64,000 nt of DNA from Halomonas sp. THAF5a (GTDB lineage: Bacteria; Pseudomonadota; Gammaproteobacteria; Pseudomonadales; Halomonadaceae): contig NZ_CP045417.1 in the NCBI RefSeq assembly GCF_009363755.1, positions 3,038,001 to 3,102,000 of the forward strand. Reading direction: 5' to 3'. Below the pieces are notes generated by a model that saw only the letters and a list, made by a program, of their open reading frames with translations, was not told the DNA's origin and did not search any database. Position 1 is the stretch's first letter, and each line of letters starts with the position of its first letter. Position numbers and translations under genes: made by a program. Below, in pieces: positions 26,281-38,675 of the stretch.

Positions 26281-27033
26281 TCAGAGGTCGTGGGGCTCGC
26301 CGGCCACGCGACGCTGCACCTCCACCATGTAGGCCGCCAGCGAGGCCAGCGCCTCGCTGTCCCAGGCCAGCGGCGCGGCGGCCATCGGGGCGACCATGCA
26401 GATCTGCACCATCTCGTCGGCGTGGACCTCTGCCATGCCGAACCGCTCGGCGGCCATCGCCACCCGGTGCGGGAAGGGCTGCTGGAAGGTGGCCTGGTAG
26501 CCGGTGTCCTGCCCGTCGCTGCCGTGGCAGCTCGCGCAGGCCAGGCCGTTGCCGCTCAGGGAGGTGTCGTAGTAGAGCGTCTCGCCTCGGGCCAGCATCG
26601 CCTCGGGGTTGTCGCCGCGCTCGCTGTAGGCCGGCACGTAGCCCTCGGGCCTGGCGACCACGGCGGCGCCTCCCTCGGCTTCCCCTTCTGCTTCCCCTTC
26701 TGCTTCCCCTTCTGCTTCCCCTTCTGCTTCCCCTTCTGCTTCCCCTTCTGCTTCCCCTTCTGCTTCGCCCTCGGCTTCGGCTTCGGCTTCGGCTTCGGCC
26801 TCACCCTCCGCCTCGGCGTGATGGCTCGCCAGCAACAGGGACGCCTCGCCCGAGGGGGAGAAGGCCGCCGCGCCAGGAGCGCCGCCCGACGCAGCGCCAC
26901 CCGACAGATCGCCGCCCGGAGCGGCCTGGAGTGCGGCGCCGCCGGCCACCAGCGCCAGCAGCGGGGCCGTGTAGGCCAGTCGACGCCTCAGGCGGCCCAG
27001 CAGCCTGCGGCGTTGTTCGTCGTGCTGTGACAT
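26281..27033 (-). CDS. c-type cytochrome with Glu-Ala-Glu-Gly repeat tract
   Basis: 250 residues from the ATG at 27033. Residues 4-37 (HDEQRRRLLGRL then a hydrophobic stretch TAPLLALVAGGAALQA) form a twin-Arg-rich n-region and export signal. Residues 73-120 are a repeat of EAEG/EAEA. Residues 140-245 are a single-haem cytochrome c domain with CASCH at 166-170 and a probable axial Met in ICMVAPM (213 or 217). It should be periplasmic. The N-terminus and repeat match the 95-residue peptide at 35821-36108. A sigma-type promoter TGTAAGC-N15-CGAC lies upstream, divergent from an identical element for the kinase operon. The electron-transfer partner is unknown. Confidence 0.85.
   Translation of the reverse strand: MSQHDEQRRRLLGRLRRRLAYTAPLLALVAGGAALQAAPGGDLSGGAASGGAPGAAAFSPSGEASLLLASHHAEAEGEAEAEAEAEAEGEAEGEAEGEAEGEAEGEAEGEAEGEAEGEAEGGAAVVARPEGYVPAYSERGDNPEAMLARGETLYYDTSLSGNGLACASCHGSDGQDTGYQATFQQPFPHRVAMAAERFGMAEVHADEMVQICMVAPMAAAPLAWDSEALASLAAYMVEVQRRVAGEPHDL
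26676..26766 (-). repeat. 12-base minisatellite encoding EAEG
   Basis: Seven copies of TTCTGCTTCCCC (plus strand), exactly 12 bases apart, between about 26686 and 26766, with a diverged edge on each side. Read on the minus strand each unit encodes E-A-E-G. The third-position uniformity is high against a GC-rich genome (GAA rather than GAG), so the units look recently amplified by slippage. Confidence 0.95.
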
Positions 27034-33469: not shown

Positions 33470-34048
33470 ATGGACGACAAGGCACACCGAATGGAGCGGC
33501 TCACGGCGGTGAGGCCGCGACTGGTCTCCTTCGCCCTCATGCATCTGCGGGATCGAAGCCGGGCAGAGGATGCCGTTCAGGAGGCCATGATGTCCGCCAT
33601 CGAGAAGAACGACAGCTTCGCCGGGCGCTCGGGCTACGAGACCTGGGTCTTCGGCATCCTCAAGTACAAGATCCTCGACGCCATGCGCGCCCAGAAGCGC
33701 CATGGGCAGTGGCAGCCGCTGGCGGACGAGAACGACGACGAGGCGATCGACCGCCAGTTCCAGCAGAGCGGCCACTGGCGGCCAGACGCCAGGCCCCAGA
33801 GCTGGGGCGAGCCCGAGGCCGCCTTCGAGAGTGAACGCTTCTGGCGCGTCTTCGACGCCTGCATGATCGCCCTGCCCGACAGCGCCGCGCGGATCTTCTC
33901 CCTGCGCGAGCTGATGGGGCTCTCCACCGAGGAGATCTGCCGGGAGCTCGAGATCAAGGAGAACAACTGCTGGGTCATGCTGCATCGCGCCCGGCTGAAG
34001 CTGCGCGCCTGCATCGAGCAGGGCTGGCTCGTGGGAGACGCCTCATGA
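33470..34048 (+). CDS. ECF-type RNA polymerase sigma factor
   Basis: 192 residues. Region 2 spans about 12-85 (LVSFALMHLRDRSRAEDAVQ, then FAGRSGYETWVFGILKYKIL, then DAMR). Region 4 spans about 125-185 (FDACMIALPDSAARIFSLRE, then LMGLSTEEICRELEIKENNC, then WVMLHRARLKLR), with a longer charged linker between. Such factors direct RNA polymerase to promoters with short -35 and -10 elements. The next gene overlaps by four bases and encodes a zinc-finger anti-sigma. Five TGTAAGS-N15-CGAC elements, one in front of this operon, are the likely targets. Confidence 0.92.
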   Translation: MDDKAHRMERLTAVRPRLVSFALMHLRDRSRAEDAVQEAMMSAIEKNDSFAGRSGYETWVFGILKYKILDAMRAQKRHGQWQPLADENDDEAIDRQFQQSGHWRPDARPQSWGEPEAAFESERFWRVFDACMIALPDSAARIFSLRELMGLSTEEICRELEIKENNCWVMLHRARLKLRACIEQGWLVGDAS

Positions 34049-34242
34049 TGATGATGTGCAAGGAAGCCACCCGCCTGATGTCGCTGCGCCAGGACCGCCC
34101 CCTCAGCTTCCAGGAGCGACTCTCGCTGCGGCTGCACCTCGCCATGTGCGGCGCCTGCCGGGAGTGCGACCGGCAGTTCACGCTGCTGCACGAGGCCGGC
34201 CGGCGCTTCGGCCCCGAGGAGAGCGACGAACCGCCGGCTTGA
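34045..34242 (+). CDS. Zinc-finger anti-sigma factor (zf-HC2 type)
   Basis: 65 residues, a bare anti-sigma domain without a membrane segment. His31, Cys35 and Cys38 in HLAMCGACREC form the HxxxCxxC zinc motif, and Cys5 is a likely fourth ligand. Such small soluble anti-sigmas are often redox- or metal-responsive because zinc release frees the sigma factor. The start overlaps the sigma stop (ATGA). The stop is one base from the stop of the convergent DUF302 gene. Confidence 0.88.
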   Translation: MMMMCKEATRLMSLRQDRPLSFQERLSLRLHLAMCGACRECDRQFTLLHEAGRRFGPEESDEPPA

Positions 34243-34243
34243 G

Positions 34244-34702
34244 TCAGCGGCCCGCGGCGGCCCCGGCCAGGCCCTCGAGCACGCCGGCGATCTTCTCCAG
34301 GGGCAGCTCACAGCCCTCCAGGCCGTGACGCTCGGCCAGGTAGTGGGGCGAGTTCCACTCCAGGCGCACGCCCTCGTCGGTCTCCCTCACCACCATCTTC
34401 TGCGGCAGGTCCAGCGCCATGCTGCCCTGGCACTGCATCATGGGCGTGCCCGCCGCCGGGTTGCCGAACACAAAGGTGCGGGTCGGCGGCAGCGCGAGAT
34501 CCACGTGCTGCGCATTGGCCGCATGGTCGACCACGGTCATCAGGGTCAGTCCCTTCTCCTCGATCGCCGCGCGCAGCCGCTGGTCGACGCGCTCGAACGC
34601 ATCGTCCGATGCGAGATGCATGATGCCGTGGGTCTCCGCCTGCACGACCGGCGCCGCGGCCAGCAGCAGGCCCAGGGCCGCCCCGATCATTGCCTTCTTC
34701 AT
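34244..34702 (-). CDS. Secreted DUF302 protein
   Basis: 152 residues from the ATG at 34702 (AAGGAA upstream). Signal peptide MKKAMIGAALGLLLAAAPVVQA. The DUF302 domain is shown by RLRAAIEEKGLTLMTVVDHA, PPTRTFVFGNPAAGTPMM and LPQKMVVRETDEG. Two Cys residues (in MMQCQG and EGCELP) could form a disulfide or bind a metal or haem. DUF302 proteins are often found beside redox and metal-stress genes, but no activity is established. It converges on the sigma operon. Confidence 0.86.
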   Translation of the reverse strand: MKKAMIGAALGLLLAAAPVVQAETHGIMHLASDDAFERVDQRLRAAIEEKGLTLMTVVDHAANAQHVDLALPPTRTFVFGNPAAGTPMMQCQGSMALDLPQKMVVRETDEGVRLEWNSPHYLAERHGLEGCELPLEKIAGVLEGLAGAAAGR

Positions 34703-34804
34703 GATGTCTGTTCCTTCTCGTTGATGGCCCGCACAGCGTGGCCAACCCCCGCGGCCCTGGCAAGTCCATCCGCCGGGGCGACCGATCAGGGCCGCCGACG
34801 ACGC

Positions 34805-34830
34805 TGTAAGGATGGCCCGGCCTCCTCGAC
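34805..34830 (+). promoter_or_regulatory. ECF-type promoter for the DUF3047 gene
   Basis: TGTAAGG (34805-34811), 15 bases, CGAC (34827-34830), 32 bases before the ATG at 34863. Confidence 0.8.
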
Positions 34831-34862
34831 CGAGCCCGGTCCCTCGATCCCTGGAGTGCCCC

Positions 34863-35579
34863 ATGACGATTCGATCGCCACGCGTTTCCCGCCAGACATG
34901 CCCAGGTCGCCGGACGGGCCGCCGGCGGCTCGCCGCGCTCGCTGCCGGACCGCTGCTGGTCGGGGCCGGCCTGGCCTGGGCGGCCGACGACCTGCACTTC
35001 TCGCCGGAGGCGATCCACGACTGGCCGACCCGGGCCTTCGCCGGCGAGACCGAGTACCGGGTCGTCGACCTGGCGGGCACCCGGGCGCTTAGGGCCCGCG
35101 CCCGCGGGCAGGCCTCGGCCAAGTACCTGGAGCGCGAGATCGACCTCGAGGCGACGCCCTATCTGCACTGGTGCTGGCGCGTCTCGGAGACCCACCCGGG
35201 GCTCGACGAGACGCGCCAGGACGGCGACGACTACCCGGCCCGGGTCTACGTGGCCCGCAAGACGGGGCTGCTGCCCTGGCAGGTGGAGTCGGTGAACTAC
35301 GTCTGGGCCTCGACCCAGCCGGCCGACAGCGCCTGGCCCAACGCCTTCACCGATCGCGCCCAGCTGCTGGCGCTGCGCAGCGGCGACGCGCGAGTCGGCG
35401 AGTGGGTGGCGGAGGTGCGCGACGTCGGCGCGGACTACCGGCGCCTGTTCGGCAGCCGCCCGGCCAGCATCGACGGCCTGGCCCTGATGAGTGACGGTGA
35501 CAACGCCGGCGTCGATGCCACGGCCTGGTTCACCCACCTCGCCTTCTCCGCCTCGCCCACGCCGCCCGACTGCCCCTGA
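34863..35579 (+). CDS. DUF3047 secreted protein
   Basis: 238 residues from the ATG at 34863 (GGAG upstream). The N-terminus has clustered Arg (GRRTGRRRLAALAAGPLLVG) and a signal ending in AWA, possibly Tat-type. The domain is recognisable by ASAKYLEREIDLEATPYLHW, DYPARVYVARKTGLLPWQ, SVNYVWAS and NAFTDRAQLLALRSG. The fold is probably a beta-sandwich of unknown role. It is under one of the five ECF-type promoters, so it belongs to the same response as the EAEG proteins. Confidence 0.82.
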   Translation: MTIRSPRVSRQTCPGRRTGRRRLAALAAGPLLVGAGLAWAADDLHFSPEAIHDWPTRAFAGETEYRVVDLAGTRALRARARGQASAKYLEREIDLEATPYLHWCWRVSETHPGLDETRQDGDDYPARVYVARKTGLLPWQVESVNYVWASTQPADSAWPNAFTDRAQLLALRSGDARVGEWVAEVRDVGADYRRLFGSRPASIDGLALMSDGDNAGVDATAWFTHLAFSASPTPPDCP

Positions 35580-35820: not shown

Positions 35821-36108
35821 TCACCCCTCGGCCTCTGCTTCCGCTTCTCCCTCCGCTTCACCTTCGGCCTCGCCTTCCGCTTCTCCCTCCGCTTCACCCT
35901 CGGCCTCGGCATGCGCCTCGGCCAGCATCAGGGGCGCCTCCTGGCCGCTGGTGTAGCCGCCGAGGGCCCCCGGGGTCTCGGCGGGCTCGGCGGCCACGGC
36001 CTGGAAGGCCGCGCCGCTCGCCACCAGCAGCAGGGCCGGTGCCGTGTCGCCGAGCTGTCGGCCGAGCCGGCCCAGCAGGTGGCGACGTTTCTCATCGTGC
36101 GGTGTCAT
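35821..36108 (-). CDS. 95-residue EAEG-repeat peptide, candidate modified-peptide precursor
   Basis: Starts at 36108 (GAGGAGG eight bases upstream; the ATG at 36114 is too close to it). Residues 4-37 (HDEKRRHLLGRL then TAPALLLVASGAAFQA) match the cytochrome at 26281-27033 in 24 of 34 positions. After a linker (PAETPGALGGYTSGQEAPLM) residues 67-95 are EAEG/EAEA repeats that run to the stop. The protein therefore looks like the cytochrome without its haem domain. I found no CxxCH in any frame downstream. The gene follows the ATP-grasp/PqqD fusion gene on the same strand by 176 bases. It is a candidate substrate for that enzyme; no function is known. Confidence 0.72.
   Translation of the reverse strand: MTPHDEKRRHLLGRLGRQLGDTAPALLLVASGAAFQAVAAEPAETPGALGGYTSGQEAPLMLAEAHAEAEGEAEGEAEGEAEGEAEGEAEAEAEG
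35838..35909 (-). repeat. 36-base duplication in the EAEG tract
   Basis: A 36-base unit beginning CTTCCGCTTCTCCCTCCGCT is repeated at 35838-35873 and 35874-35909 (plus strand). The repeat unit differs from the 12-base unit of the cytochrome gene, so the two tracts grew separately. Confidence 0.85.
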
Positions 36109-36190
36109 GGTCATGACCTCCTCGATTGGCAGTGTCGGACCGCGGCGTCGACGCTTCCTCGCGCTCGACGTCCGCGTTCGCAACGCACGC

Positions 36191-36210
36191 GCGACACGCC
36201 GGGCGTGTCG
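36191..36210 (-). terminator. Hairpin between the ATP-grasp fusion and the EAEG peptide
   Basis: A stem of CGACACGCC with its complement in GGGCGTGTCG, in the 176-base gap. No T tract. It may reduce read-through or set the ratio of peptide to enzyme. Confidence 0.4.
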
Positions 36211-36284
36211 CCATGCCACGGGCCGGCCGGCGGGCCGACCCCGTCATCAGCGTCGCCGCGGCGGCGCCGGATGCTCGGGCCCCG

Positions 36285-38675
36285 CTACTCCCCCGCCGCC
36301 GCGGCGCGGTCGACGGGGGCATCGGTCGCCATGCTCTCGGCCAGCCAGGCGGCCAGCGCCGTGCTCGACGGCGCCTCGCTTCCCGCCTCCGCGTCGATCG
36401 CGACGGCGCCGAGGGACAGGGTGGCGAGCCAGTCGCCCAGGGCCGTGACGCCCTGGGCCGTCAGTCGCCCCTCACCGGTCAGGCAGTGGGGCAGCAGCGC
36501 CCCCAGCGCCTCCAGCATGGCGACCGGGGCCAGAGGCGTCTCGACGTGGGCGCCCGCCGCCAGCAGCACGCCGCGCAGGGTCACGCCCGCCGGGCAGGCC
36601 GGCGCCGAGCCAGGCTCTTTCATGGGCGCGTCCAGCGGCTCGGCCCGCGCCGGGTCCGCGAGGTCCAGGCGCACGCCGCGGGTCAGTCGGCCGCCGCCTT
36701 CCTCGCACAGCCTCGCGATCAGGGTGCGGCGCGGCGCGCCCTCGGGGAGCAGGCAGAGCACGCCGGTGCCGTCGGGCCCGACCAGCACGGGCGCATCGAT
36801 CACCGGCCGGTCGGCGCTCGCGACCCGGCGCAGCAGGTGGGCGATCAGCACGGGGACCAACCGGGCCAGGGTCAGCCGTCCGGCGACCAGTCGATCGCCC
36901 TCGGCCAGGGCGTAGCCCGCCGCCTCGCGCAGCACCCGCAGCCGCGGTCGCCCGCTCACCTCGCCCTCGACCGGCACCAGTCGCGGCCCGAAGGCGGCCG
37001 CAAGCCTCACGAGGGCCGGGCCGCTCGCCGCCTCCAGCCCCCACTCCTGCCCCGCCAGGCGCAGCGTGAAGGCGCGAGGGACGCGGGGCGTGTCGGCCTC
37101 GGCGGCCGGCGCGGTCGCCTCCGCGGCCTCCCGCTCGCCCGCCTGGCGGAGCAGGCCGAGGCGGCACCAGTCGTGCAGGGTGGCCCAGACCTCCCGACGC
37201 AGGGACTCACGGTCGGCCGTACGCTCGTCGCCCGCCGCCTGGGCGGCGCCCGCCAGCGACTCGACGATGGCCTCGAGGTCGAGCCCCTCGGTCGCCAGCA
37301 GCCAGATCAGCGCCGCCGTGTCGTTGGGCCGGTAGAGATCGCCGCGGCGGGTGTCGTAGAGGGCGAGGCACTCCCCGTCGACGATCTCCGCCACGTGGCG
37401 CCGGGCCAGACGCGGGGCCGGCAGCGGTTGCCCCGCGAGTCCCGCGGCCAGCCGCCAGTCGGCCAGGCTCGGCAGCGAGAAACAGGGCAGGTAGCGCGCC
37501 GGATCGGCGGCCGGCAGCAGCCGCCGGAAGCCCCCGGCGCGCGCCCGCTCCGCCTCGGCCTCGGCGAGGAGCGCCGCGGTCTCGTCCCGGCCCGCCTGCT
37601 GGCTCGCCGTCTCGGGGGGCGCCTGGCCGGGGAGGTCGAGCAGCGTCACCAGGTCCCGGACCAGGCCGCCCTTGACGGCCTCCTCGACCCGTCCGCCCGT
37701 GTCCGGGGCGGCGCAGATGCCGAGCGACGGGCTCAGGTTGCACTCGAGGATCCAGGGCGTGAGGGTGTCGTCCACCAGGCAGTCGAGGCCCAGCAGCTCG
37801 TAGCAGCCGCGCGGGTCGGCGCCGGCCTCGGCGGTGCGGGCACGCATGGCGTCCACGGCGGAGATCGCGGTGAGCGCCACCAGGTCCTCGATGCGCGCGA
37901 AGAGCGTCGCGTCGTCGTGCCCCTGGTCGCTCAACCAGGCCCGGTAGCGATCGAGGTCGATGAACTCCACCGGCACCTCGGCGTCGGTGTTCAGGGCGTT
38001 GATGTCCGGATTGGTCAGCTGGCTGAAGGGGTTGTCGGCATCGTCGGGGTCCCAGGGCTCCGAGGCCAGCTTGGCGAAGCCCTGGCGGTAGAGATAGACG
38101 CGCAGCGGATCGAGGGAAGCGATCAGCACATAGAGGCGCAGCACGTACTTGTGGCCACGGATGGTGTGGGGGTTGGCCAGGTACGCCTGCACCAGCCAGT
38201 CCCGGGCCAGGGGCGCCTCGGCGACGTCGGTGAGCACGCGCACGCCCTTGCCCTTGGAGGCATTGGTGGGCTTCAGGATCCAGCGCTGCTCGGGGTGATC
38301 CTGGGCGGCCTGCTGCAGCGCGTGGTAGTCATCGGGCATCACGTAGGCGCGGGGAAAGAATGCCAGCCGCCGGGCCAGGGCATGGTCGGGCCCGTGGCTC
38401 TCCCTGAGGCGCTCGCGCAGGGCGGCCAGGCTCTCGTGCAGGCGACTCTTGACGGTGAGCGCCGCATTGCCCGGGAAGTGGTTCATCCGGCGCGTCGGCG
38501 AGACCCGGCGAAACTGCCCGGCCTGGGGCATGCCGGTGATCCAGGCGGCGTCCCAGTCATCCTCGTCACCGGCCCGCCAGCCCAGGGGCTCCAGGGCCTC
38601 CCGGAAGAAGCGATCCTGTTCCTCGGCCCGCTGGCCGCCCAGCCAGAAACGTCTCGGCGAATGCTGCTGCGTCAT
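36285..38675 (-). CDS. Tubulin-tyrosine-ligase-type ATP-grasp fused to a PqqD-like domain
   Basis: 796 residues from the ATG at 38675 (AGGAG). Residues 1-345 are a TTL-type ATP-grasp ligase: FFPRAYVMP, KPTNASKGKGVRVL (135-148, ATP-binding Lys), RLYVLIASLDPLRVYLYRQG, SQLTNPDIN (218-226, matching the LTN-x-x-IN motif of TTL enzymes) and PWILECNLSPSLG (307-319, metal-binding Glu and Asn). Residues about 428-512 are PqqD-like (ECLALYDTRRGDLYRPNDTA, then LIWLLATEG and LGLL), the fold used as a leader-peptide recognition element in RiPP pathways. Residues 535-780 resemble a degenerate HprK-like kinase domain (VGPDGTG without the P-loop Lys-Ser). TTL enzymes ligate amino acids to protein carboxylates. 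An EAEG peptide gene lies immediately downstream, and an ECF-type promoter precedes this gene. Confidence 0.82.
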   Translation of the reverse strand: MTQQHSPRRFWLGGQRAEEQDRFFREALEPLGWRAGDEDDWDAAWITGMPQAGQFRRVSPTRRMNHFPGNAALTVKSRLHESLAALRERLRESHGPDHALARRLAFFPRAYVMPDDYHALQQAAQDHPEQRWILKPTNASKGKGVRVLTDVAEAPLARDWLVQAYLANPHTIRGHKYVLRLYVLIASLDPLRVYLYRQGFAKLASEPWDPDDADNPFSQLTNPDINALNTDAEVPVEFIDLDRYRAWLSDQGHDDATLFARIEDLVALTAISAVDAMRARTAEAGADPRGCYELLGLDCLVDDTLTPWILECNLSPSLGICAAPDTGGRVEEAVKGGLVRDLVTLLDLPGQAPPETASQQAGRDETAALLAEAEAERARAGGFRRLLPAADPARYLPCFSLPSLADWRLAAGLAGQPLPAPRLARRHVAEIVDGECLALYDTRRGDLYRPNDTAALIWLLATEGLDLEAIVESLAGAAQAAGDERTADRESLRREVWATLHDWCRLGLLRQAGEREAAEATAPAAEADTPRVPRAFTLRLAGQEWGLEAASGPALVRLAAAFGPRLVPVEGEVSGRPRLRVLREAAGYALAEGDRLVAGRLTLARLVPVLIAHLLRRVASADRPVIDAPVLVGPDGTGVLCLLPEGAPRRTLIARLCEEGGGRLTRGVRLDLADPARAEPLDAPMKEPGSAPACPAGVTLRGVLLAAGAHVETPLAPVAMLEALGALLPHCLTGEGRLTAQGVTALGDWLATLSLGAVAIDAEAGSEAPSSTALAAWLAESMATDAPVDRAAAAGE

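Follow-up and report, generated by a model that had tools for sequence, protein, structure and literature searches.

A TTLL-type ligase fused to a PqqD-like domain in Halomonas, and its candidate substrates: a peptide and a c-type cytochrome with EAEG tails

A pair of adjoining genes in a 64,000-nucleotide stretch of Halomonas sp. THAF5a (hereafter the window, in whose positions coordinates are given) raises the question of what an enzyme of the tubulin-modifying kind does in a bacterium. One gene encodes a 796-residue fusion of a tubulin tyrosine ligase (TTL)-type ATP-grasp domain with a PqqD-like domain; the other, downstream, encodes a 95-residue peptide ending in EAEG repeats. The favored reading, to which we give a probability of about one half, is that the fusion binds a leader common to this peptide and to an EAEG-bearing cytochrome, and ligates an amino acid, most likely glutamate, onto the glutamates of the repeats before export. 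Sequence shows the domain make-up, the conservation of the ATP-grasp residues, a leader common to both precursors, their repeats and a tight co-occurrence. The enzyme belongs to the TTL-like (TTLL) type, and its second domain resembles the recognition elements (RREs) that bind leaders of ribosomally synthesized and post-translationally modified peptides (RiPPs). Its parts are:

36285..38675, minus strand: TTLL-type ATP-grasp / PqqD / HPr-kinase-like fusion, 796 residues, predicted amino-acid ligase
37479..38663, minus strand: TTLL-type catalytic domain, residues 5-399
37143..37415, minus strand: PqqD/RRE-like domain, residues 421-511, from Pfam PqqD and superposition of the model on RREs
36288..37118, minus strand: HPr-kinase/PEPCK-like domain without Walker A, residues about 520-796

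The initial annotation of this locus had described a TTL-type ATP-grasp/PqqD fusion, and the family searches bear it out. Pfam TTL (PF03133) matches residues 61-324 (E 2.2e-51, 175.3 bits against a cut-off of 20.1), Pfam PqqD matches residues 438-509 (27.3 bits, cut-off 23.4), and both families were matched in 17/17 homologs scanned. In structure comparison the TTLL fold covers the whole catalytic domain, whose closest solved relatives, by sequence and by fold, are TTLL polyglutamylases such as TTLL6. Plain TTL stands far below TTLL6 in both rankings, which makes a tyrosination reading weaker. The sole glycylase-like chain among the structure matches, 5vlq (database name LOC100158544 protein), which we take to be the glycylase TTLL3, scores 6e-10 against 1e-39 for the glutamylases. 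The model of the PqqD-like domain lies 1.4-2.1 Å from the TbiB1 and lasso B1 RREs, those solved with leader peptides. Full-length fold searches listed the TTL part only, so the C-terminus was folded alone; Walker A was found in 0/33 C-terminal pieces (one of them cut by a contig end), which speaks against an active HPr kinase. Public records call several homologs of the enzyme amylase; a domain of that kind was not found in the window protein.

The adjoining peptide has the following parts:

35821..36108, minus strand: precursor peptide, 95 residues, leader plus EAEG tail
35989..36108, minus strand: peptide leader, residues 1-40, with a basic n-region containing RR, a hydrophobic stretch and AxA
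35824..35907, minus strand: peptide EAEG repeat, residues 68-95, 14 E-x units

Two ATGs stand behind a GAGGAGG motif, and the 95 residues are counted from the second; a start at the first would make 97. The N-terminus, described earlier as conserved, is indeed common to relatives in Halomonadaceae and Marinobacter, and Thr and Ser occur between leader and repeat. The tail consists of 14 consecutive E-[A/G] units written in mixed synonymous codons (Glu 7 GAA and 7 GAG, three codons for Ala, four for Gly). The 3.8 Mb genome holds 18 matches to a 24-base pattern for E-A-E-[A/G]-E-A-E-[A/G], every one on the same strand: six in the peptide gene, 12 in the gene at 26281-27033 and none elsewhere, against a single match for the reversed control. 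A looser 21-base pattern gave 32 matches in the window and none in 100 shuffles. The EAEG repeat is not a product of chance.

The second gene with the strict pattern, 8.8 kb away from the peptide gene, encodes a cytochrome:

26281..27033, minus strand: second precursor, 250 residues, with leader, EAEG repeat and c-type cytochrome
26671..26814, minus strand: cytochrome EAEG repeat, residues 74-121, 24 E-x units
26284..26595, minus strand: cytochrome c domain with CxxCH, SoxA/TsdA-like (PF21342, below cut-off here)

Aligning residues 1-70 of the peptide with residues 1-85 of the cytochrome precursor gives a score of 135, where 1000 shuffles reached a maximum of 35; a hidden Markov model (HMM) of the leader finds the cytochrome leader at E 9e-19, although this is itself one of the training leaders. 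The PF21342 scores are 23.8 bits for the window cytochrome (cut-off 27), 36.5 for its Marinobacter ortholog in locus L066 and 39.4 for the cytochrome of L180. Part of the cytochrome repeat is a recent expansion, since one 12-base unit, copied several times, makes up much of it. Across the 111 precursors, RR occurs within the first 20 residues in 72 and AxA within residues 27-50 in 100; the best 15-residue hydropathy of the window's two leaders is 1.9 and 1.6. The leader looks like a Sec/Tat-type export signal, and the AxA only suggests a possible signal-peptidase site. A c-type cytochrome must reach the periplasm for heme attachment.

The initial interpretation, a TTL/PqqD fusion paired with an EAEG peptide, therefore needs amending as well as keeping: the pairing stands, but the relatives are TTLL rather than TTL enzymes, and the third domain, the second candidate substrate and the export-like character of the leader had been missed. 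Its proposed division of labor, in which the PqqD part would read the N-terminus while the TTL part would act on the repeat glutamates, stands up well.

A scan of a genome collection for relatives of the enzyme found 82 loci, of which the best 80 were kept; the protein search by alignment covered the best 120 of 438 proteins. Precursors were counted by a leader-based search because repeat pattern searches are noisy in relatives: 15/44 genomes without the enzyme hold at least one pattern match, several of them plain E-A runs. Homologous fusions regularly found with no repeat-bearing partner had been named as the observation that would speak against the pairing. Instead, the leader HMM finds a leader-plus-repeat open reading frame (ORF) in 77/80 loci, the rest being L085 (a 3 kb contig with a cut enzyme), L091 (Pararhodobacter) and L098 (Aidingimonas, with a truncated enzyme). 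In 71/80 loci a small ORF of this kind follows the enzyme gene in the same orientation, no more than 1.2 kb away, with a median gap of 112 bp. Among the nine others, L087 and L093 miss narrowly because their enzyme ORF is broken, and L090 and L092 have the peptide on the opposite strand. The leader-bearing cytochrome falls within the fetched flanks of 27/80 loci.

The pairing is equally close at the level of genomes. The survey of 275 family genomes gave an enzyme profile match in 80, a peptide query match in 86 and both in 79; the sole enzyme genome without a precursor match, G425, has a truncated enzyme, and one of the 79, G652 (74% complete), holds only decayed pieces of both. Seven genomes have a precursor match and no enzyme match (G008, G031, G002, G562, G660, G537 and G575). 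The match in G562 (E 8e-4) and that in G660, which covers the repeat part alone (E 4e-4), look spurious, with no leader-plus-repeat gene among the listed ORFs, and the precursor scores of G537 and G575 are as weak as that of G562. Among 58 relatives, the leader-bearing cytochrome occurs in 12/14 with the enzyme against 2/44 without it (G008 and G031); in the enzyme-less G006 and G055 the cytochrome domain stands without the leader. A broader sample gave enzyme matches in 11 of 369 genomes of the class, three over most of the protein (the genome itself, G212 and G322) and one over a long part (G418), and in 5 of 398 genomes of the phylum, three over most of the protein. In G212 and G322 (loci L181 and L182) a leader-EAEG peptide again lies about 0.7 kb downstream of the enzyme. 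Elsewhere, remnants of a second enzyme copy at G019:C1:919195-919911, near a second leader-EAEG peptide (L122:15514-15702), suggest duplication and decay of the enzyme-peptide pair.

The ATP-grasp residues are well conserved. K135, N138, Q163, K176, R180 and K202 are invariant in 79/79 aligned ORFs (the 80 loci minus L065, whose ORF the pattern missed; some are broken or cut), and E311 and N313 are kept in 78/79, the remaining row being a gap; K135, E311 and N313 are presumably catalytic, as in other ATP-grasp enzymes. Wild-type TTLL6 (6vzt) and engineered TTLL6 (6vzq) differ at three positions, C/Q/H against A/R/I, and the titles of these PDB entries mention an engineered mutant as well as analogues of initiation and elongation. 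This engineering reportedly converted an elongating enzyme into a branch-initiating one. In the bacterial family the first of these positions is S (63) or A (16), the second K (61) or R (18) and the third L (78/78 ungapped), which is the pattern of the engineered enzyme. Because these three TTLL6-variable positions are small, basic and aliphatic in the orthologs, we infer that the fusion would start branches rather than lengthen chains.

The composition of the repeats bears on what is joined. In 108 of the 111 precursors (the E-A-S-P-like repeat peptides of L058, L062 and L069 do not fit the pattern and were omitted) the repeat regions are 46.6% Glu, 25.5% Gly, 22.8% Ala and 2.6% Lys, with a median of 16 Glu. 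No Lys, Ser, Thr or Cys occurs in 69/108, the window's two included, and one or more of them is present in 39/108. The Glu side-chain carboxylates of the repeat are therefore the likely acceptors, with an external amine favored. Since the nearest solved relatives are glutamylases, glutamate is our best guess for the donor amino acid.

We propose the following course for the favored reading. The PqqD domain would dock on the leader in the manner of lasso-peptide RREs; the TTL domain would use ATP to activate a carboxylate of the repeat, which a free amino acid would attack through its alpha-amine, giving isopeptide branches that are started and not lengthened. ATP-grasp chemistry needs ATP, so that modification would precede export. 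The Sec/Tat-type-looking leader would then carry the decorated protein over the inner membrane, where the cytochrome would receive its heme. The weakest step of this scheme is the last: in the envelope the tail, branched and polyanionic, would act as a tag for docking or for binding ions.

Several points weigh against this reading. The leader HMM later scored the same 80 loci that had supplied its training leaders, and the co-occurrence table (79, 1, 7, 188) gives a Fisher value of 1.9e-59 that is uncorrected for relatedness. In the Pararhodobacter locus an enzyme ORF is present but the 14 kb covered hold no precursor, while L047 and L088 show only the cytochrome in their fetched flanks. The drafts L083, L084, L087 and L093 keep the precursor with a broken or shortened enzyme ORF, through sequencing error or decay, and a leader match stands without an enzyme match in G008 (100% complete), G031 (86%) and G002 (79%, at a contig end). 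The meaning given to positions 140, 141 and 314 follows a result reported in one paper, and the low score of 5vlq is that of one chain, which does not settle the choice of donor.

The same leader-guided ligation to repeat glutamates could use glycine, alanine or another small amine. The repeat provides Glu carboxylates whatever the donor, and the TTL family includes tubulin glycylases, according to PMC12340829. With glutamylases as the closest solved relatives and the one glycylase-like chain so far below them, we regard another donor as unlikely, though with a real chance of being right. An ATP-grasp enzyme beside a leader-bearing acidic partner also recalls the graspetides, in which amide or ester bonds cross-link the peptide within itself. 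The 39 repeats with Lys, Ser, Thr or Cys, and the Thr and Ser in the linker of the window peptide, would suit such cross-links, yet the fold is that of a TTLL enzyme and we do not prefer this reading because 69 of the 108 repeat regions are without a nucleophile; it is very improbable.

The enzyme might instead modify another protein and do no more than bind the EAEG proteins, which would be acidic scaffolds under shared regulation. In G008 a leader-EAEG cytochrome persists although no enzyme match is present, so that the tail may have a use unmodified. Co-occurrence in 79/80 genomes and adjacency in 71/80 loci tell against this, as does the truncated enzyme of G425, which coincides with the absence of a precursor match; we hold it to be improbable. 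TTLL enzymes, moreover, modify glutamate-rich tails, as PMC12340829 states. Scarcely different in likelihood, and if anything a shade less probable, is that the tails are unmodified acidic flexible linkers and the fusion a chaperone or inactive. The NCBI family name for the enzyme, PqqD family peptide modification chaperone, speaks for this, and acidic low-complexity sequence is common in halophiles. The strict repeat pattern, however, is confined to two leader proteins of the genome, and the ATP-grasp residues are kept in 78-79/79 ORFs while the kinase-like C-terminus lacks Walker A, which argues that selection holds the ligase specifically.

A comparison between two genomes of the same genus, taken as Marinobacter, bears on the tail as a module. 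G779 has enzyme, leader and EAEG tail together. G055, 100% complete and without an enzyme match, encodes a cytochrome domain 66% identical over 111 residues to that of L066, with a DUF3179 neighbor as in G779; it carries neither EAEG nor that leader, is flanked on both sides by CNPC/KNPC repeats and adjoins DUF6969:

L180:8265-9113, minus strand: CNPC/KNPC cytochrome of G055, ortholog of the EAEG cytochrome
L180:7444-8193, minus strand: DUF6969 protein of G055

DUF6969 may modify or serve the Cys-rich CNPC tag. This tail swap is one comparison only, and G008 shows that an EAEG tail can stand without the enzyme. A bolder reading would be a bacterial version of the tubulin code, in which an RRE-steered TTLL-type ligase would start glutamate branches on the EAEG tails of exported proteins, a c-type cytochrome among them, the tail being a swappable module; for this fuller picture we put the odds slightly short of even.

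The surroundings were compared in 31 loci:

33470-35579: ECF (extracytoplasmic function) sigma factor (TIGR02943), zinc-finger anti-sigma, DUF302 and DUF3047 genes adjoining the peptide
L066:9888-10499, L063:9683-10285, L032:9815-10360: DinB-like representatives (Pfam DinB or DinB_2 above cut-off in 2/3)

In 27/31 loci the peptide is followed by a same-strand DinB-like gene; the exceptions are the window, L047, L091 and L092. Near the peptide there recur an ECF sigma factor (19 loci), DUF3047 (12), a rhodanese-domain gene (12) and a DUF302-like gene (11/31, with 1/2 representatives above cut-off); DsrE was also identified among the neighbors. Rhodanese, DsrE and the SoxA-like cytochrome give only a hint of sulfur chemistry. 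A cluster present in 8/31 loci contains Peptidase_C92, a permuted papain-like amidase (L036:14770-15636 and L063:12036-12854, above cut-off in both), which could serve to cut back modified tails or set them free. Among the named neighbor clusters of the 31 loci, no gene for a leader peptidase or a peptide exporter was recognized. A promoter scan found none, and a terminator scan gave one weak site, inside the enzyme gene and no better than shuffles.

The family profile also found standalone relatives in G250 (L166, E 1.6e-14) and G261 (L167, E 8e-11):

L166:1559-2803 and L167:9134-10327, minus strand: standalone PqqD-HprK-related proteins

These share the PqqD-plus-HprK-like architecture of the fusion, whereas they keep Walker A, in a motif beginning with Ala, and have no TTL domain. 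The L166 protein matches TIGR04352 at 1.4e-26, below its cut-off, and adjoins a 71-residue peptide whose Tat-like N-terminus resembles the EAEG leader (L166:2850-3065, minus strand; the leader HMM gives it 13.6, at E 3.9e-6 with two sequences in the set), possibly pointing to a wider family of leader-guided, export-linked modification. On a separate contig of G250, a standalone TTL protein (L165:7759-8862, plus strand; PF03133, E 6.5e-44), in which no PqqD domain was found, has a small neighbor with a Tat-like N-terminus.

Among known systems, the two closest kinds are the eukaryotic tubulin polyglutamylases (TTLL6, TTLL7 and TTLL11) and the RRE-guided RiPP systems. The first differ from the system of the window in several ways. 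Here there is no tubulin, the catalytic domain is fused to PqqD/RRE-like and HPr-kinase-like parts, and the acceptors bear an export-like leader. RRE-guided RiPP systems (lasso B1/TbiB1, PqqD) share the RRE fold and the short leader-bearing precursors beside the enzyme, but here one precursor is a whole cytochrome. Graspetides likewise combine an ATP-grasp ligase with acidic residues of a leader-bearing precursor, whereas this enzyme belongs to the TTLL branch of the superfamily and most of its repeats have no ring-forming nucleophile. The alpha-L-glutamate ligases of RimK and TIGR02291 type are bacterial ATP-grasp enzymes of other families, TIGR02291 reaching only E 0.11 against the window enzyme. 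RimK extends a C-terminus and is not known to have an RRE or to act on repeats. It adds glutamates to ribosomal protein S6, as PMC4431377 describes. The sequence of the system examined here combines features of TTLL glutamylases with those of RRE-guided RiPP systems. A term search within two papers (PMC8939145 and PMC12710340) met no mention of tubulin or TTL. Papers found on TTLL and polyglutamylation in bacteria concern SidJ and TTLL12. In the open-licence literature no paper on a bacterial TTL/PqqD fusion or an EAEG precursor was recognized; subscription papers lie mostly outside that search, so absence from print is not shown.

If the bolder reading is true, the system would be a new class of leader-guided modification, applied to a redox protein, and the first TTLL pathway in a bacterium as far as the open-licence literature shows. 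If the favored reading is true, leader-guided modification would extend from small natural products to an exported cytochrome. Acidic-tail glutamylation of the tubulin type would then exist in bacteria too, where two genes would make a simple test system; it would show how an RRE can re-aim a TTLL catalytic domain, and the enzyme class could put branched acidic tags on chosen proteins. Knockouts could then test whether the tails have a role in the envelope of halophiles or in electron transfer linked to sulfur.

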